DNA from: Thermoanaerobacter wiegelii Rt8.B1
Lineage (GTDB): Bacteria; Bacillota; Thermoanaerobacteria; Thermoanaerobacterales; Thermoanaerobacteraceae
Length of the DNA: 64,000 nucleotides
Reading direction: 5' to 3'
Assembly: GCF_000147695.2 (NCBI RefSeq)
Contig: NC_015958.1
Span: 474,501-538,500, forward strand
The position numbers and the translations under genes are program-made. The notes under the pieces were generated by a model. The model made no database searches. It saw only the letters and a program-made list of their open reading frames with translations, and was not told the origin of the DNA. Shown here in pieces: positions 5,845-62,104 of this stretch. Position 1 is the stretch's first letter. Every line of letters begins with the position of its first letter.

Positions 5845-5950
5845 TTTAATAACAAGCGAATACAGGTGCCTAATTTTGCAATCAAATTGGGTTAAAAGGG
5901 AAGCAGGTGAAAAGCCTGCACGGTCCCGCCACTGTGATGGTGAGCTCTTT
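5845..5950 (+). promoter_or_regulatory. Cobalamin riboswitch, 5' portion only (truncated)
   Basis: The conserved B12 aptamer elements appear in order: ACAGGTGCC near 5862, TTAAAAGGGAA near 5892, then the GC stem GCAGG-TGAAAA-CCTGC and CACGGTCCCGCCACTGTGA around 5903-5938. The 3' half, with the closing B12-box strand (CAGGAGACC type) and the expression platform, is absent: coding sequence of the cbiN tail begins at about 5952. Established: complete versions control cobalt/B12 uptake genes. Inference: the deletion that removed cbiM also destroyed this switch. Confidence 0.88.
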
Positions 5951-5951
5951 A

Positions 5952-6095
5952 CATTATGCCTTTAAACCAATTTGGGAGCCACCAAGTGGAGAAATTGAAA
6001 GCCTTTTGTTTGCCGCCTTACAGGCTGCAATTGGTGCAGGCTTTTTGGGATATTATATAGGTGTTGCGAAGGGGAGAAAAAATGCTAATAGATAG
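5952..6095 (+). pseudogene. cbiN: cbiN 3' remnant (cobalt ECF transporter subunit)
   Basis: The translated segment KPIWEPPSGEIESLLFA followed by LQAAIGAGFLGYYIG is the characteristic C-terminal part of CbiN, including its last membrane helix. About the first half of cbiN and all of cbiM are missing. An open frame can be traced backward into the riboswitch with a GTG at 5907, but that is an accident of the deletion fusion and is unlikely to be a real start. The stop overlaps the cbiQ start, the normal operon arrangement. Confidence 0.85.
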
Positions 6096-6231: not shown

Positions 6232-6784
6232 CATACAGCTTTTCTTTGCTAGTGTATACCAAGAAATTTCTTTTGGCCCTATGAACCTGGGTTATCCAGA
6301 AAATATAGTAAAAGAGAAAGTGGAAAAAGCCATGAAGGAAACGAGAATTATTGATTTAAAAGACAAGCCCACCCATTTTTTAAGCTATGGGCAGAAAAAA
6401 AGCGTCTCAATAGCTGATATTATAGTTATGGAGCCTGAAGTTATTATATTGGATGAGCCAACGGTTTATTTAGACCCTAAGCATGTTCAAGAGATTATGG
6501 GCTTGTTTGACAAATTGGTTGAAGAGGGAAAGACACTCATTTTATCAACTCATGATGTGGACTTTGCTTATTCATGGGCTGACTATATATATGTCATAAA
6601 GAATGGAAAAGTTGTTGCAAAAGGCGAACCTGCGGTTGTTTTTACTAACGCAAAAGAACTCGATTGGAGTGATTTGAGAAGGTCTATGCTTTTGGAAATA
6701 TATGAAATTTTAAAAGAGAAAGGAGTTATTGACGAAAGTAATATACCAAAAAATATGGAAGAATTAAAGAAGTGTATAAAATAA
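6218..6784 (+). pseudogene. cbiO: cbiO 3' remnant (cobalt ECF transporter ATPase), Walker A lost
   Basis: Homology begins at the Q-loop (FQNPDIQLF, 6218-6244) and runs to a natural C terminus. It keeps the signature LSYGQKKS, Walker B VIILDEPTVYLD and the H-loop STHDVDFA. The N terminus with the Walker A P-loop is missing, so no functional ATPase is expected. The start of homology abuts the cbiQ remnant, marking a second deletion junction near 6218. A hairpin terminator follows immediately at 6785. Confidence 0.88.
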
Positions 6785-6818: not shown

Positions 6819-7476
6819 GTGCGCCCGGCATGGGCGATAGCTAGGCGGTGAAAGTCCGCTGTGGGCTTGGTAGTGGGAACCACTAGCCGAGAGCAAGGGT
6901 GTCCATCGTGAGGTGGAATCTGAAGGAAGCTTAAGGCAAAATCTCGGTCTGATGAACAAGAACCAGATAAGAGGCTGAATTGGGATGGATGAGTTTGCAC
7001 ATCAAAACAAAGTCCAACACTACCCGAATCCCATACAGTAAATCTGGCAGATATATGAGATGAAAGCTATCGTTCTTACCCAGGGAGGTCTCAAGGATAA
7101 GTCATGGAAGTAAAATATGAAGTGACAACCCATACAGTGATGTATGGCTGAACCTTGAGAAGTCAGCAGAGGTCATAGTACTTATCTAGACATGAATAGA
7201 TAAGGAAGGACTGAACATTAGGAGGTTTCGGAAATCTTATGAACTCGAGAGATATGCGAAGACTGCAGACAACTCAACAAAGAGGCTATCCGTTGGATAG
7301 AGAAATGGAATTTCAAAAGACAACGGAAGTGCATAGTATATCATCGGCGTCAAGGGATGGAAGAAACGATGTACTAAGAATTGTACATAATTCCTAATGA
7401 ACCGCCGTATACCGAACGGTACGTACGGTGGTGTGAGAGGACGCTGAATAAAATAATTATTCAGCTCCTACTCGAT
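6819..7476 (+). mobile_element. ORF-deleted group II intron (class C-like), 658 bp
   Basis: Its ends match the full-length intron at 35757-37669: it begins GTGCGCCCGGCATGGGCG and ends CTACTCGAT, and the shared parts are about 96-97% identical by eye. Domain V (ACCGCCGTATACC-GAAC-GGTACGTACGGTGGT, about 7399-7433) and a domain VI hairpin with a potential branch A are intact. Only the domain IV reverse-transcriptase frame is lost, between about 7365 and 7392. It lies 8 bases after a terminator hairpin, as class C introns do, and inside the IS left inverted repeat (TTTGT / TGACAAAA). It could splice or move only with a maturase supplied in trans. Confidence 0.87.
7239..7397 (+). pseudogene. Remnant of group II intron maturase, 52 codons
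   Basis: The ATG at 7239 follows TTAGGAGGTTT and begins like the complete maturase at 36177 (N-S-R-D-M-R-R-L-Q versus D-S-K-D-M-Q-R-L-Q). It keeps about 45 N-terminal residues, then switches to unrelated codons and stops at 7395. All reverse-transcriptase motifs and the maturase domain X are missing. Confidence 0.8.
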
Positions 7477-8941
7477 TGACAAAACGAAATTTAAGCCCCT
7501 GTTTTCTTAGTCCCGAAAACAGGGGCTGTATATATCTGGATAAAATTTTCCTTAAAGTTCCAAATAATGGGTAAAAATTTAAAGTGCCAAAAGGGCTCTT
7601 ACCCCTCCTCCATAACCATGTTGCCATTTTCTTTAAATTCATGGCAACAAAAACAAGCATCGCTTGCATGGACAATTTTTCTTTTCCTCTTAATGTTGTC
7701 CATCGCAAACCATGCTTCTCCTTCAAATCTGCAAACACTCTCTCTATTGTCTCTTTCCTTCTCTCATATACTTCTTTACAATAAGGTGTATGTCTTAAGT
7801 GTTCTGCTTCTTCTACATATCCTTCCCATATGTGCCTGAATATCCTCTTTGTGTAGTCTTTACTTTGGGTACACTTTTCTCTTAAAGGACAATTCTTGCA
7901 TTTTTCTGGATTTGATTTGTACTCTCTATATCCTTCTCTATTGGTTGTGACATATGTTAGTATTTCATTTTGTGGGCATATGTAACAGTCATAATATTCA
8001 TCATACACAAACTCATGTTTCTTCATAAAACCGTCTTTTGTTTTTGGTCTTGTGTATGGCACTGCTGGTATTATTTCTCTATCAAATATTGTCTTTAATA
8101 TGTACGGATTTTTGTATCCTGCATCTACTGCTATTGCTTTCGGTTTTCCTATTCTCTTTTCAACTTCTTCTAATACTTCTTCAAACATTACGCTGTCGTG
8201 GACATTTGCAGCTTCAACTTTTACTCCTAATACAAATCCGTTTTTATCGCAGGCTGTGTGAAAAGAATATGCAAAACATTTTTCTTTTCCATTTTTATTT
8301 AACATTCCGCTATCTGGGTCTGTTTTGCTTACTTTCACTTCTTTCGTCTTTATTTTCTTGATTTTCTTTAATGGCTTTTTGCCATGAGCTTCTCTATCTT
8401 TGTTTATTTCTTCTTCTAGTTTTTCTTGATAAGTCCTGGCTTCTTGTTCTACTATTTCTTTGGTGTATTTCTTCTTGTTGGCACTTGCTTTTACATGGGT
8501 TGAATCTATGAATACTTCCTCCGCATTTACTAGCCCATGCCTTATTGCTTCTTCTAAAATCTTCGTAAATATTTTCTCAAATATGTCTGTCCCTTTGAAT
8601 CTTCTTATGTAGTTCTGGCTAAATGTTGAAAAATGAGGTATTTCTTCTGTTAGCCCATACCCTAAAAACCACCTATATGCCACATTTGTTTTTATCTCTG
8701 ATATTGTCCTCCTTATTGAGGGTATGCCAAAAAGATACTGAATAAACAGGATTTTTATTAATACTACTGGATCTATGCTTGGTCTGCCGTGATCTTCGGA
8801 ATATTTGTCTTTTACTAAATCGTATATGAAATTAAAGTCTATAACTCTTTCTATCTTTCTTAAAAGGTGATCTTTTGGTACTAATTGATCTATGCTTACA
8901 AATTCTATTTGATGTCTTGCATCCTGTTTCTTTGTTAACAT
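7457..8941 (-). CDS. IS1182-family transposase (DDE)
   Basis: A 494-residue transposase with the family's N-terminal helical region (HQIEFVSIDQLVPKDHLLR), the DUF772-like segment GRPSIDPVVLIKILFIQYL, and a C-terminal DDE domain. Candidate catalytic acids are in VFIDSTHVKA (D near 147), AIAVDAGYKN (D near 274) and ERVFADLKEKHGLRW (E near 422). A cysteine cluster (CPQNE, CKNCPLREKC) is typical. AGGAGAGG precedes the ATG. The last seven codons and the stop come from the inserted intron; without it the frame reads through the inverted repeat into flanking DNA. The catalytic region is intact, so activity is plausible. Confidence 0.9.
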   Translation of the reverse strand: MLTKKQDARHQIEFVSIDQLVPKDHLLRKIERVIDFNFIYDLVKDKYSEDHGRPSIDPVVLIKILFIQYLFGIPSIRRTISEIKTNVAYRWFLGYGLTEEIPHFSTFSQNYIRRFKGTDIFEKIFTKILEEAIRHGLVNAEEVFIDSTHVKASANKKKYTKEIVEQEARTYQEKLEEEINKDREAHGKKPLKKIKKIKTKEVKVSKTDPDSGMLNKNGKEKCFAYSFHTACDKNGFVLGVKVEAANVHDSVMFEEVLEEVEKRIGKPKAIAVDAGYKNPYILKTIFDREIIPAVPYTRPKTKDGFMKKHEFVYDEYYDCYICPQNEILTYVTTNREGYREYKSNPEKCKNCPLREKCTQSKDYTKRIFRHIWEGYVEEAEHLRHTPYCKEVYERRKETIERVFADLKEKHGLRWTTLRGKEKLSMQAMLVFVAMNLKKMATWLWRRGKSPFGTLNFYPLFGTLRKILSRYIQPLFSGLRKQGLKFRFVNRVGAE

Positions 8942-9040
8942 CTTCCTTTTCCTCTCCTCTTTTGCTTTATACTACTAAAAATAAAAAAACAAGGAACCCT
9001 TTTCATAATAACGGGTTCCCGATATTTTGTCAACAGTCTG

Positions 9041-9066
9041 AAAGCTGCTGAGGTTTCAGCAGCTTT
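9041..9066 (-). terminator. Stomatin-operon terminator = right copy of 26-bp IS target duplication
   Basis: Identical to 6785-6810. On the minus strand it directly follows the stop of the 9066-9839 gene, with one base of overlap, and reads AAAAGCTGCTGA...TCAGCAGCTTT. The hairpin is bidirectional. Before the insertion one copy probably served both convergent transcripts, cbiO and the stomatin operon. Confidence 0.85.
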
Positions 9067-35756: not shown

Positions 35757-37669
35757 GTGCGCCCGGCATGGGCGATAACTAGGCGGTGAAAGCCCGCTGT
35801 GGGCTTGGTAGTGGGAACCACTAGCCAAGAGCAAGGGTGTCCATCGTGAGGTGGAATCTGAAGGAAGCTTAAGGCAAAATCTCGGTCTGATGAACAAGAA
35901 CCAGATAAGAGGCTGAATTGGGATGGATGAGTTTGCGTAACAAAACGAAGTCCAACACTACCCGAATCCCATACAGTAAATCTGGCAGATATATGAGATG
36001 AAAGTTATCGTTCTTACCCGGGGAGGTCTCAAGGATAAGTCATGGAAGTAAAATCTGAAGTGACAACCCATGCAGTGATGTATGGCTGAACCTTGAGAAG
36101 TCAGCAGAGGTCATAGTACTTATCTAGTCATGAATAGATAAGGAAGGACCGAACGTTAGGAGGTTTTGGAAATCTTATGGACTCGAAAGATATGCAGAGA
36201 CTGCAGACAACTCAACAAAGAGGCTATCCGTTGAATAGAGAAATGGAATTTCAAAAGACAACGGAAGTGCATAGTATATCATCGGCGTCAGAAGATAGAA
36301 GAAACGATGTACAAAGATATACCAGCAATATGCTTGAGATGATAGTAGAACGAGAGAACATGAGATTAGCATACAAGCGAGTCGTTACAAATAAAGGGAG
36401 CCATGGAGTCGATGGGATGGAAGTAGATGAACTTCTACCGTATCTCAAAGAGAAATGGCCAACCATAAAGCAACAATTGCTGGAAGGGAAGTATAAACCA
36501 CAACCAGTGCGAAGAGTAGAAATTCCCAAACCAGATGGAGGAGTAAGACTACTAGGAATACCTACAGCACTAGATAGGCTAATACAACAAGCAATAGCCC
36601 AAATACTAAATAGAGTCTACAACCATACATTTTCCGATAGCAGTTATGGATTCAGACCAAGACGCAGTGCAAAAGACGCAATAAAAGCCGCAGAAGCATA
36701 TATAAATGAAGGATACGCATGGGTTGTAGATATGGACTTAGAAAAGTTCTTTGACAGAGTAAACCACGACATAATAATGTCCAAACTAGAAAAGCGGATA
36801 GGAGACAAAAGGGTACTAAAGTTAATACGAAGATACTTAGAATCAGGAGTAATGATAAACGGAATCAAAGTATCAACAGAAGAAGGAACGCTGCAAGGAG
36901 GGCCACTAAGTCCGTTATTAGCAAATATCATGTTGGACGAATTAGACAAAGAACTTGAAAAACGTGGGCATAAATTTTGTCGATATGCAGACGACTGCAA
37001 CATATATGTAAGAAGCAGGTCTGCAGGAAACAGAGTAATGAAGAGCATAAAGAAATTCATAGAAAGCAAATTAAAACTAAAAGTCAACGAAGCAAAAAGT
37101 GCTGTAGATAGACCCTGGAGAAGAAAATTTCTTGGATTTTCATTCTATACAAAAGAAAATGAAGTGAGGATAAGAATCCATGAAAAATCCATCAAAAGGT
37201 TTAAGGAAAAAGTAAGAGAAATAACCAATCGGAACAAGGGAATAAGCATGGAAAACAGAATAAATAGACTAAATCAAATAACAACAGGATGGGTCAACTA
37301 TTTTGGATTAGCAGACGCAAAAAGCATAATGAAAACCCTTGACGAATGGATAAGGCGAAGACTAAGGGCATGTATATGGAAACAATGGAAGAAGATAAAA
37401 ACGAAGCATGATAACTTAGTAAAACTAGGAGTAGAAGATCAAAAAGCCTGGGAATATGCCAATACAAGGAAAGGCTATTGGAGAATTTCCAACAGCCCAA
37501 TCCTGAACGCAACTCTTACAAACAAATACTTTGAAAGCATTGGATACAAGAGTTTAACAAAAAGATATCTAACTGTGCATTAGTTCCTAATGAACCGCCG
37601 TATACCGAACGGTACGTACGGTGGTGTGAGAGGACGCTGAATAAAATAATTATTCAGCTCCTACTCGAT
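35757..37669 (+). mobile_element. Full-length group II intron (class C-like), 1913 bp
   Basis: 5' end GTGCGCCCGGCATGGGCG, 3' end CTACTCGAT. Domain V is at about 37592-37626 (ACCGCCGTATACC-GAAC-GGTACGTACGGTGGT), followed by a domain VI hairpin. The domain IV frame at 36177 encodes the maturase. Insertion immediately downstream of a terminator, and a maturase without an endonuclease domain, are hallmarks of class C. The intron boundaries were fixed by comparison with the deleted copy at 6819-7476. Probably mobile. Confidence 0.92.
36177..37583 (+). CDS. Group II intron reverse transcriptase/maturase
   Basis: 468 residues. RT domain: KPQPVRRVEIPKPDGGVRLL (RT1-2), SYGFRPRRSAKDAI (RT3), WVVDMDLEKFFDRVNHD (RT4, first catalytic Asp), GTLQGGPLSPLLANIMLDEL, the YADD box at FCRYADDCNIYV and KFLGFSF (RT7). 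Domain X ends with the class-typical RKGYWRISNSPILNATL. No En (HNH) endonuclease domain follows. AGGAGGTTTTGG precedes the ATG. It could also serve the ORF-less intron at 6819 in trans. Confidence 0.95.
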   Translation: MDSKDMQRLQTTQQRGYPLNREMEFQKTTEVHSISSASEDRRNDVQRYTSNMLEMIVERENMRLAYKRVVTNKGSHGVDGMEVDELLPYLKEKWPTIKQQLLEGKYKPQPVRRVEIPKPDGGVRLLGIPTALDRLIQQAIAQILNRVYNHTFSDSSYGFRPRRSAKDAIKAAEAYINEGYAWVVDMDLEKFFDRVNHDIIMSKLEKRIGDKRVLKLIRRYLESGVMINGIKVSTEEGTLQGGPLSPLLANIMLDELDKELEKRGHKFCRYADDCNIYVRSRSAGNRVMKSIKKFIESKLKLKVNEAKSAVDRPWRRKFLGFSFYTKENEVRIRIHEKSIKRFKEKVREITNRNKGISMENRINRLNQITTGWVNYFGLADAKSIMKTLDEWIRRRLRACIWKQWKKIKTKHDNLVKLGVEDQKAWEYANTRKGYWRISNSPILNATLTNKYFESIGYKSLTKRYLTVH

Positions 37670-61162: not shown

Positions 61163-61804
61163 ATGTTAATTGATGATTCATTAAAGGAGTATATTGAAAA
61201 AGTGGCATCTTCATCTCCAACACCGGGAGGGGGGAGTGTATCCGCGTTATCAGCAAGCCTTGGGATTGCCCTTTCAACAATGGTTTACAATCTTACAATA
61301 GGTCGAAAATTTTATGAGGAATATACAGATGATATTAAAGAAGAGATTCAACAAGGGCTTAGTATATGTAATCGACTTCTTGCAGAATATGTAAAGCTTA
61401 TTGATGAAGATACTGTAGCTTATGACGAAGTGATGAAAGCACTTAAGATACCAAAAGATACTGAAGAAAATAAAAAAATAAGAAGCGAAACACTTCAAAA
61501 AGCTTATATTAACGCTATGGATGTTCCTCTAAAACTTGCGAGATTATGTGGAGAGGCTTTTACCCCGACAATGCTTATTGCGGAATACGGGAATCCTAAT
61601 GCCATATCTGATGCGGCAGTTGGAGCGATTCTACTATATGCAGCAATAGAGGGTGCTGTTTTGAATGTTAAAGTGAATATTCCCTACATTAAAGATAGAG
61701 AAATTGCTGAAAAAGCAAATAAAGAATGTGATGAGATTTTGGGAAAATACAAAAATATAAGGGATGAAATTGTAAACAAAGTTTTAAACAAAATTTCTAC
61801 ATAG
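61163..61804 (+). CDS. fchA: Formimidoyltetrahydrofolate cyclodeaminase
   Basis: Converts 5-formimino-THF to 5,10-methenyl-THF plus ammonia, finishing the histidine route begun by hutU/ftcD/hutI. 213 residues, all-alpha FTCD_C fold; motifs SSPTPGGGSVSALSASLGIA, the MVYNLTIGRKFYEEY region, and NPNAISDAAVGAILLYAAIE. AAAGGAG precedes the ATG. It stands 9 kb from hutI, across two other operons. Its terminator hairpin overlaps the stop codon and is the target of the element at 61823. Confidence 0.94.
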   Translation: MLIDDSLKEYIEKVASSSPTPGGGSVSALSASLGIALSTMVYNLTIGRKFYEEYTDDIKEEIQQGLSICNRLLAEYVKLIDEDTVAYDEVMKALKIPKDTEENKKIRSETLQKAYINAMDVPLKLARLCGEAFTPTMLIAEYGNPNAISDAAVGAILLYAAIEGAVLNVKVNIPYIKDREIAEKANKECDEILGKYKNIRDEIVNKVLNKIST

Positions 61805-61822
61805 AGTGCGATGAGCACTCTT
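61802..61822 (+). terminator. fchA terminator hairpin = left target duplication (21 bp)
   Basis: Starts at the TAG stop; stem AGAGTGC/GCACTCT with loop GATGA. Perfectly repeated at 62084-62104. Confidence 0.85.
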
Positions 61823-62083
61823 CAGACTGTAGACAAACTTTCGGAAAGGAGATATTTTGCATAAGGAGCGACTTGTGACAAAGCGTTAACAAAACTTAGC
61901 AAGACCGAGGGTGGAGGCAGGGCCAAAGCCCAGGATGGCGGAGGCGGGCACCTGAGACAGGATGTCGCCTGACGGGGAACCCTGCCGGAACCCGAAGGTC
62001 GAGCTTAGTTTTTTCGCTTTGGAACACCGGAGCTACGATCCAAAATATCCTATTTAAAAATTTTTGACTTTGTCAACAAGCTG
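61823..62083 (+). mobile_element. 261-bp MITE-like element with structured RNA-like core
   Basis: Ends CAGACTGTAGACAAAC and, read inward from the right, CAGCTTGTTGACAAAG (12 of 16 matching). Both resemble the IS at 6811-9040. A perfect 21-bp direct repeat of a terminator hairpin flanks it. No ORF. Nested pairings close the whole unit: GATATTTTG (61851)/CAAAATATC (62041), AAAGCG (61880)/CGCTTT (62015), 61891-61906 with 61997-62012 (13 of 16), GGCAGGG (61916)/CCCTGCC (61980), AGGCG/CGCCT enclosing CCTG-AGA-CAGG. The core is far more GC-rich than its surroundings. Confidence 0.82.
61880..62020 (+). ncRNA. Candidate structured RNA, class unassigned
   Basis: GC-rich multibranch fold within the mobile element. 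The outer stem AAAGCG/CGCTTT and 61891-61906/61997-62012 lead into a junction with GGCAGGG/CCCTGCC, a GGGC-CAAA-GCCC hairpin (61920-61931) and an AGGCG/CGCCT arm. Purine-rich single-stranded pieces (GAGGGTGGAGG, CCGGAACCCGAAGG) look conserved in style. I cannot assign it to a named class from memory; raiA or HEARO-like RNAs are candidates for a covariance-model test. Strand is inferred from the direction of fchA. Confidence 0.5.
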
Positions 62084-62104
62084 TAGAGTGCGATGAGCAC
62101 TCTT
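62084..62104 (+). terminator. Right copy of duplicated fchA terminator
   Basis: Identical to 61802-61822; followed by AATTTTATG. It may now terminate transcripts crossing the mobile element. Confidence 0.85.

Follow-up and report, generated by a model that had tools for sequence, protein, structure and literature searches.

IS1272, the studied member of the IS1182 insertion sequence family, targets terminator hairpins, which it removes without making a duplication (PMC4923244, PMC5678879), and duplication of the whole hairpin has been drawn only as a hypothetical alternative, pathway b of Wan 2017 (PMC5678879). TwoAYGGAY (RF01731) is an RNA family proposed from motif matches to bind CsrA (Gardner & Eldai 2014, PMC4333381). 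Both bear on a 261-bp non-coding element at the fchA terminator of Thermoanaerobacter wiegelii Rt8.B1, situated in a 64,000-nucleotide stretch of contig NC_015958.1 (positions 474,501 to 538,500), referred to below as the window, in which all coordinates are given. We consider it very probable that this is a miniature inverted-repeat transposable element (MITE) with IS1182-type ends, that it inserts on terminator hairpins and duplicates them whole, and that it carries a divergent TwoAYGGAY RNA, an assessment that does not extend to CsrA binding. The original prediction for this locus was largely right in its reading; the transposase family, the generality of whole-hairpin duplication and the RNA family were not identified there.

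A mobile element between duplicated terminator hairpins

Direct-repeat comparison of the window identified the fchA terminator hairpin TAGAGTGCGATGAGCACTCTT as two 100% identical 21-bp copies on the + strand, at 61802-61822 and 62084-62104, in agreement with the original prediction. The left copy is severed from most of the U-tract, and a T-rich tail is present 3' of the right copy only, which together form the working terminator. Between the two lies the element (61823-62083, + strand), bounded on the basis of about 120 oriented copies plus empty sites, with its outer ends formed by a left terminal inverted repeat (TIR) CAGACTGTAGACAAA (61823-61837) and a right TIR TTTGTCAACAAGCTG (62069-62083). 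The predicted arrangement of a doubled hairpin with an element between stands with one amendment of the boundary, in that the right TIR stops at 62083 and the hairpin lies outside the element, because the hairpin is the target-site duplication. The element holds no open reading frame (ORF) of at least 60 aa and has a GC content of 49% compared with 31% in its flanks, both as first described. The RNA-like fold noted at the outset was likewise recovered, with a free energy of -97.2 kcal/mol on the + strand (z -6.5; 0 of 200 shuffles equal or better) and -85.6 kcal/mol on the - strand (z -4.8).

A sequence search of the same genome returned 45 stretches matching the element, some of which are pieces of one copy, and eight other genomes of the genus, taken as Thermoanaerobacter in the broad sense (an inferred assignment), contain many copies that are typically 85-93% identical. 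The orthologous fchA site is empty in two relatives (G008 and G002; loci L318 and L317), with a single hairpin and no element, and in another (G005) the same hairpin holds an oppositely oriented element, likewise flanked by a hairpin copy at either end. The fchA terminator has therefore been hit at least twice. Tandem insertions comprising three hairpins and two elements were found at L058, L149 and L153. Taken as a comparison of occupied and empty sites, these data show the element to be mobile, and its length, lack of an ORF, multiple copies, TIRs common to IS1182, target-site duplication and empty allele identify it as a MITE, as had been proposed; transposition into terminators, also proposed, is supported by the same copies and empty sites. 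The absence of other copies, of an empty allele and of covariation had been named beforehand as evidence against the prediction, and all three (covariation is described below) are contradicted by the data. One 54-bp deletion derivative (L127 in G000, at about 606.9 kb) retains the two ends, flanked by duplicate copies of a 25-bp hairpin, and represents a minimal element.

The terminator hairpin that forms the flanking repeat changes from copy to copy. A clear duplication is present in 80 of the 120 oriented copies, with a length of 17 to 33 bp (median 23), and its centre coincides exactly with the hairpin centre in 69 of these 80 and to within half a base in 76. Hairpin scores at the insertion sites average 12.9, compared with 6.0 for shuffles of the same sites. 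The gene contexts are tandem or convergent and seldom divergent, i.e. those of terminators, and in the 35 tandem contexts the RNA strand has the direction of the upstream gene in 26 cases and the opposite one in 9 (p 0.006). The aligned copies thus show insertion on intrinsic-terminator hairpins with a hairpin-centred duplication of the whole hairpin. Each insertion would part the left hairpin copy from its U-tract and leave the U-tract with the right copy; the host gene would therefore still be terminated.

IS1182-type ends and the presumed transposase source

A search for the unpaired element ends led to an IS1182-family element in the same window (7476-9040, - strand), the left end CAGACTGTTGACAAAA and right end TTTGTCAACAAACTG of which are common to the corresponding TIRs of the MITE. 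Its transposase ORF (7457-8941, - strand; read as 494 aa, the copy being interrupted) matches NF033551 with 490.4 bits, against a cut-off of 270, as well as DDE_Tnp_1_6 and DUF772, and a terminator-like hairpin adjoins its left end (9041-9066, - strand). These shared termini show the ends of the MITE to be of IS1182 type and suggest that the element is non-autonomous and would depend for its movement on an IS1182-family DDE transposase acting in trans, for which the window copy is the presumed source. There are four near-identical IS1182 copies in the genome, one TIR of each being broken by a group II intron, in the window copy the right TIR. The introns of the window lie on the + strand at 6902-7476 (short, within that right TIR) and 35840-37669; the occurrence of the same kind of intron in one TIR of all four copies looks as if it targets TTGACAAAA within the TIR. 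The start of the transposase (L128; window 8941-8960) is preceded by AGGAGAGGAAAAGGAAG, with three GGA near the ATG, which is possibly a CsrA site and possibly just a purine-rich ribosome-binding site.

Intact 1566-bp relatives of the IS1182 element (G007, L325 and L339) duplicate the whole hairpin. A total of 28 IS1182 loci were examined, mostly from a scan of named genomes and most of them from other Firmicutes, and in 18 a palindromic duplication, 18-35 bp long, directly abuts ends of the form CAGRCTGTNGACAAA, namely in L325, L339 and 16 from other taxa, including Paenibacillus, Alkalihalophilus, Evansella, Anaerococcus and Thermotalea; their scores are 18-35, and mismatched flanks, used as a control, score at most 13. 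In pathway b, as drawn by Wan et al., an extruded stem-loop would be duplicated entire when joining takes place at its 5' feet. The copies match this prediction, and we infer a cruciform mechanism.

Several known categories were considered for the element and rejected. The 6S, SRP, OLE and ROOL RNAs gave no Rfam match, nor did HEARO or the IS605-orfB omega RNA, for which the partner is in any case an IS1182 DDE transposase; the same partner, which is not a DEDD recombinase and makes target duplications, speaks against an IS110 bridge RNA. Long target-site duplications of the IS1634 type were discarded given the IS1182 transposase, and hairpin replacement of the IS1272 type given whole-hairpin duplication in 80 MITE and 18 IS1182 copies. 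The element was also rejected as a degenerate group II intron, such introns being located elsewhere in the window.

A divergent TwoAYGGAY RNA core

An Rfam scan, as called for by the original prediction, found nothing in the element at gathering thresholds; E-value mode and other genera revealed RF01731, which is consistently the top match, always in one position, on one strand and over the full model span. The score is 18.9 bits in the degenerate window copy, below the gathering score, and 29-40 bits in sister copies, with best scores of 40.4 bits in the genus, 42.7 in a neighbouring genus and 59.9 in the same order (29 copies in G019); L039, a locus of the neighbouring genus, matches with E 3.5e-5. 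A reciprocal covariance model (R1), built only from this genus and the neighbouring genus, scores 169.9 bits on the window copy, which is part of its training set, and recovered 23 of the 29 independent RF01731 loci where they were expected, with E values as low as 4e-12, and 0 of 6 negative loci. As the Thermoanaerobacter copies score under the gathering cut-off, what ties them to the family is the reciprocal model together with this consistency. The homologous RNA core (61868-62025, + strand) is full length, with a covarying stem and two AYGGAY-type hairpin loops, the first at 61931-61936 (CAGGAT in the window copy, ANGGAN in most copies) and the second at 61959-61963 (AGGAT closed by GAC/GTC in the window copy, CATGGATG in many copies), both on the + strand. 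Taken strictly, the gathering score leaves the window copy outside RF01731, and judged by homology it is a divergent member.

Covariation of the stems, the further check proposed at the outset, was assessed over 105 aligned copies. Watson-Crick pairs account for 91.9% of the cells in paired consensus columns compared with 66.4 ± 3.1% under a null that kept the consensus and the tree and let sequences evolve free of any constraint on structure, and double-compensatory cells number 375 compared with 127 ± 34. G-U intermediates outnumber A-C (109 vs 80, p 0.04), and a larger share of them goes on to form a new pair (p 0.03), both weak hints that the + strand is the selected strand. Unpaired GGA letters in the core have a mean conservation of 92%, other unpaired letters 81%. 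By this compensatory change the interior is shown to be a structured RNA held paired, with the stronger structure on the + strand, and the earlier suggestion that the interior carries or derives from a structured RNA is further supported by its RF01731 homology.

Among 398 genomes screened from the phylum, 51 contain RF01731, often in multiple copies, as do 0 of 14 control genomes. The neighbouring genus has the RNA core once per genome, at the same locus in the genomes compared and without IS1182 ends; there the core is 94-98% identical between species and the flanks 76-92%. At this locus the core is inverted in one species (L217 vs L039 and L040), possibly after flipping between terminal inverted repeats of its own. 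In G153 and G067, which belong to two other families, the RNA copies have CAGACTGTAGACAAA-type ends and lie between duplicated hairpins. The copies of G019 and G021 differ in their ends (GATTTWAGTGTA), and at some of these loci ~8-bp repeats are present; those of G019 (n = 29; L215, L232, L243, L245-L264) have ends GATTTWAGTGTA.../...TACACTAAAATC with ~8-bp repeats. A second transposon type is therefore suggested, by which the RNA may have been captured as by a different mobile carrier. In several other genera (G210, G307, G275, G322 and G384) RF01731 is multi-copy, with no TIR or target-site duplication recognisable at the copies. Elsewhere in the window, a cobalamin riboswitch (5847-6021, 42.3 bits) is located ~260 bp 5' of an ABC-transporter ATPase ORF (6281-6784).

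Function of the RNA and relation to known systems

The left TIR is spanned by a promoter-like TAGACA-N17-TATTTT (61830-61858, + strand), a consensus match that is partly constrained by TIR and stem; TATTTT at spacing 17 is kept in 78 of the 97 copies with a recognisable GACA. This weak predicted promoter and/or read-through would transcribe the RNA, and the transcript would end at the duplicated host terminator. With a predicted promoter in the left TIR and the duplicated hairpin as a terminator, the element could therefore be a complete transcription unit. Read-through from fchA is possible at the window copy because the first hairpin is cut off from its U-tract; in other copies the orientation is merely biased towards the upstream gene (26 vs 9, tandem contexts). 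As each insertion doubles the host terminator, the RNA would gain a ready 3' end and the host gene would retain its own. The ANGGAN loops might bind CsrA, either singly or as many copies titrating it, and csrA is present in 49 of the 51 RF01731-positive genomes compared with 236 of 347 negative genomes (p 4e-6, not corrected for phylogeny). We advance only tentatively the proposal that the RNA acts as a CsrA-binding RNA via these loops. More doubtful still is the wider scenario in which TwoAYGGAY is transposon cargo in part of its range, with terminator-seeking IS1182 MITEs having carried a CsrA-binding RNA into dozens of terminators, where its copies jointly form a dispersed, Clostridia-type CsrA sponge.

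Other readings of the locus differ widely in how probable they appear. Local tandem duplication or element-borne hairpins, in place of target-site duplications, would accommodate the few copies with unlike hairpins on their two sides; the repeat, however, is locus-specific and equals the one hairpin present where the orthologous site lacks the element, and we give this explanation virtually no credence because the empty sites contradict it. Among those few copies, the unlike hairpins of L141 are as expected from inter-copy recombination. RNA-mediated mobility, whether retro- or guide-RNA-based, in which the RNA itself steers insertion, would fit a structured RNA inside the element, as in IS605, IscB and IS110 elements, but is highly improbable given that full-length IS1182 copies duplicate whole hairpins too, with no RNA core seen in those examined, and that the targets are alike in form and not in sequence. 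It is also improbable, if less so, that the fold is a property of the DNA only, i.e. that a near-palindromic MITE forms a long hairpin aiding transposition, as single strand or cruciform, and has no RNA function. Pairing that extends from TIR to TIR, mobilisation by the ends only and the decay of copies such as that in the window are consistent with such a fold, whereas the same core and loops persist without these ends at the single, better conserved locus of the neighbouring genus, the core occurs with other ends in another family, conservation of loop letters goes beyond pairs alone and the + strand folds better than the - strand.

A real structured RNA with a job other than CsrA binding, such as a 3' untranslated region (3'-UTR) stabiliser, a transposase-regulating RNA or an insulator before the host terminator, is a credible possibility that stops short of being likely. 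Insertion directly 5' of a working terminator is a position in 3' UTRs, and the shared direction with the upstream gene in most tandem contexts also agrees with such a role; against it, the two ANGGAN-type loops fit the CsrA motif (PMC4333381) and csrA co-occurs with the family. The reading of a terminator-duplicating IS1182 MITE that carries a TwoAYGGAY RNA, and its extension to CsrA, must itself be set against several observations. Thermoanaerobacter copies fall below the RF01731 gathering cut-off of 43 bits, the excess of G-U over A-C is modest (p 0.04), and G153 and G067 have the element with no close IS1182 transposase. An intact IS1182 copy (L350 in G007) lacks a hairpin duplication and has only a 6-bp CTTCAC repeat, at a seemingly non-hairpin target. 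No preference for the T-run over the A-run side of the hairpin was found (19 vs 17), a test that is uninformative because most hairpins are bidirectional. The csrA association ignores phylogeny, a csrA-positive family (f4) is without this RNA, and transcription of the element is a prediction from its sequence.

The analysis provides an orphan RNA family with a mobile-element context and many natural copies, and describes a self-sparing mode of genome entry, in which an element lands on a terminator, doubles it and would leave the gene with a working end. With >90 natural events (about 80 MITE and 18 IS), whole-hairpin duplication, previously only a drawing, becomes amenable to study, and direct tests of cruciform-directed DDE transposition become possible. 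Should the RNA bind CsrA, Clostridia would own a dispersed small RNA antagonist of CsrA, so far merely postulated.

The CsrB/CsrC/RsmX/Y/Z sponges resemble the element in that GGA occurs unpaired at several sites, in part within hairpin loops; they are Gammaproteobacterial and have no sequence relation to the element, for which CsrA binding is only putative. BOX/RUP/SPRITE repeats and the Coxiella QMITE small RNAs (review PMC10969869) are also short, non-coding, multi-copy elements with structured transcripts, transcription being predicted in the present case, and differ in that neither a curated RNA family with free-standing members nor whole-terminator duplication is reported for them. The core shares with TwoAYGGAY (Weinberg 2010, PMC2864571; Gardner & Eldai 2014) a long stem interrupted by GA-rich internal loops, a pair of apical hairpins whose loops read A-N-GGA-N, and a full-length model alignment; unlike the family as described in those papers, which report no mobile context, it resides within an IS1182-type MITE at 30 or more copies per genome and scores below gathering in the genus. 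A literature search on hairpin duplication by IS1182 elements, which did not extend to subscription reviews or ISfinder, turned up the IS1272 papers only. As in IS1272 (Furi 2016, PMC4923244; Wan 2017), in which no RNA cargo is described, an IS1182-type DDE transposase is associated with terminator-type hairpin targets without common sequence, and one hairpin can be used repeatedly and in both orientations; whereas IS1272 deletes or replaces the hairpin, the present group duplicates it whole.
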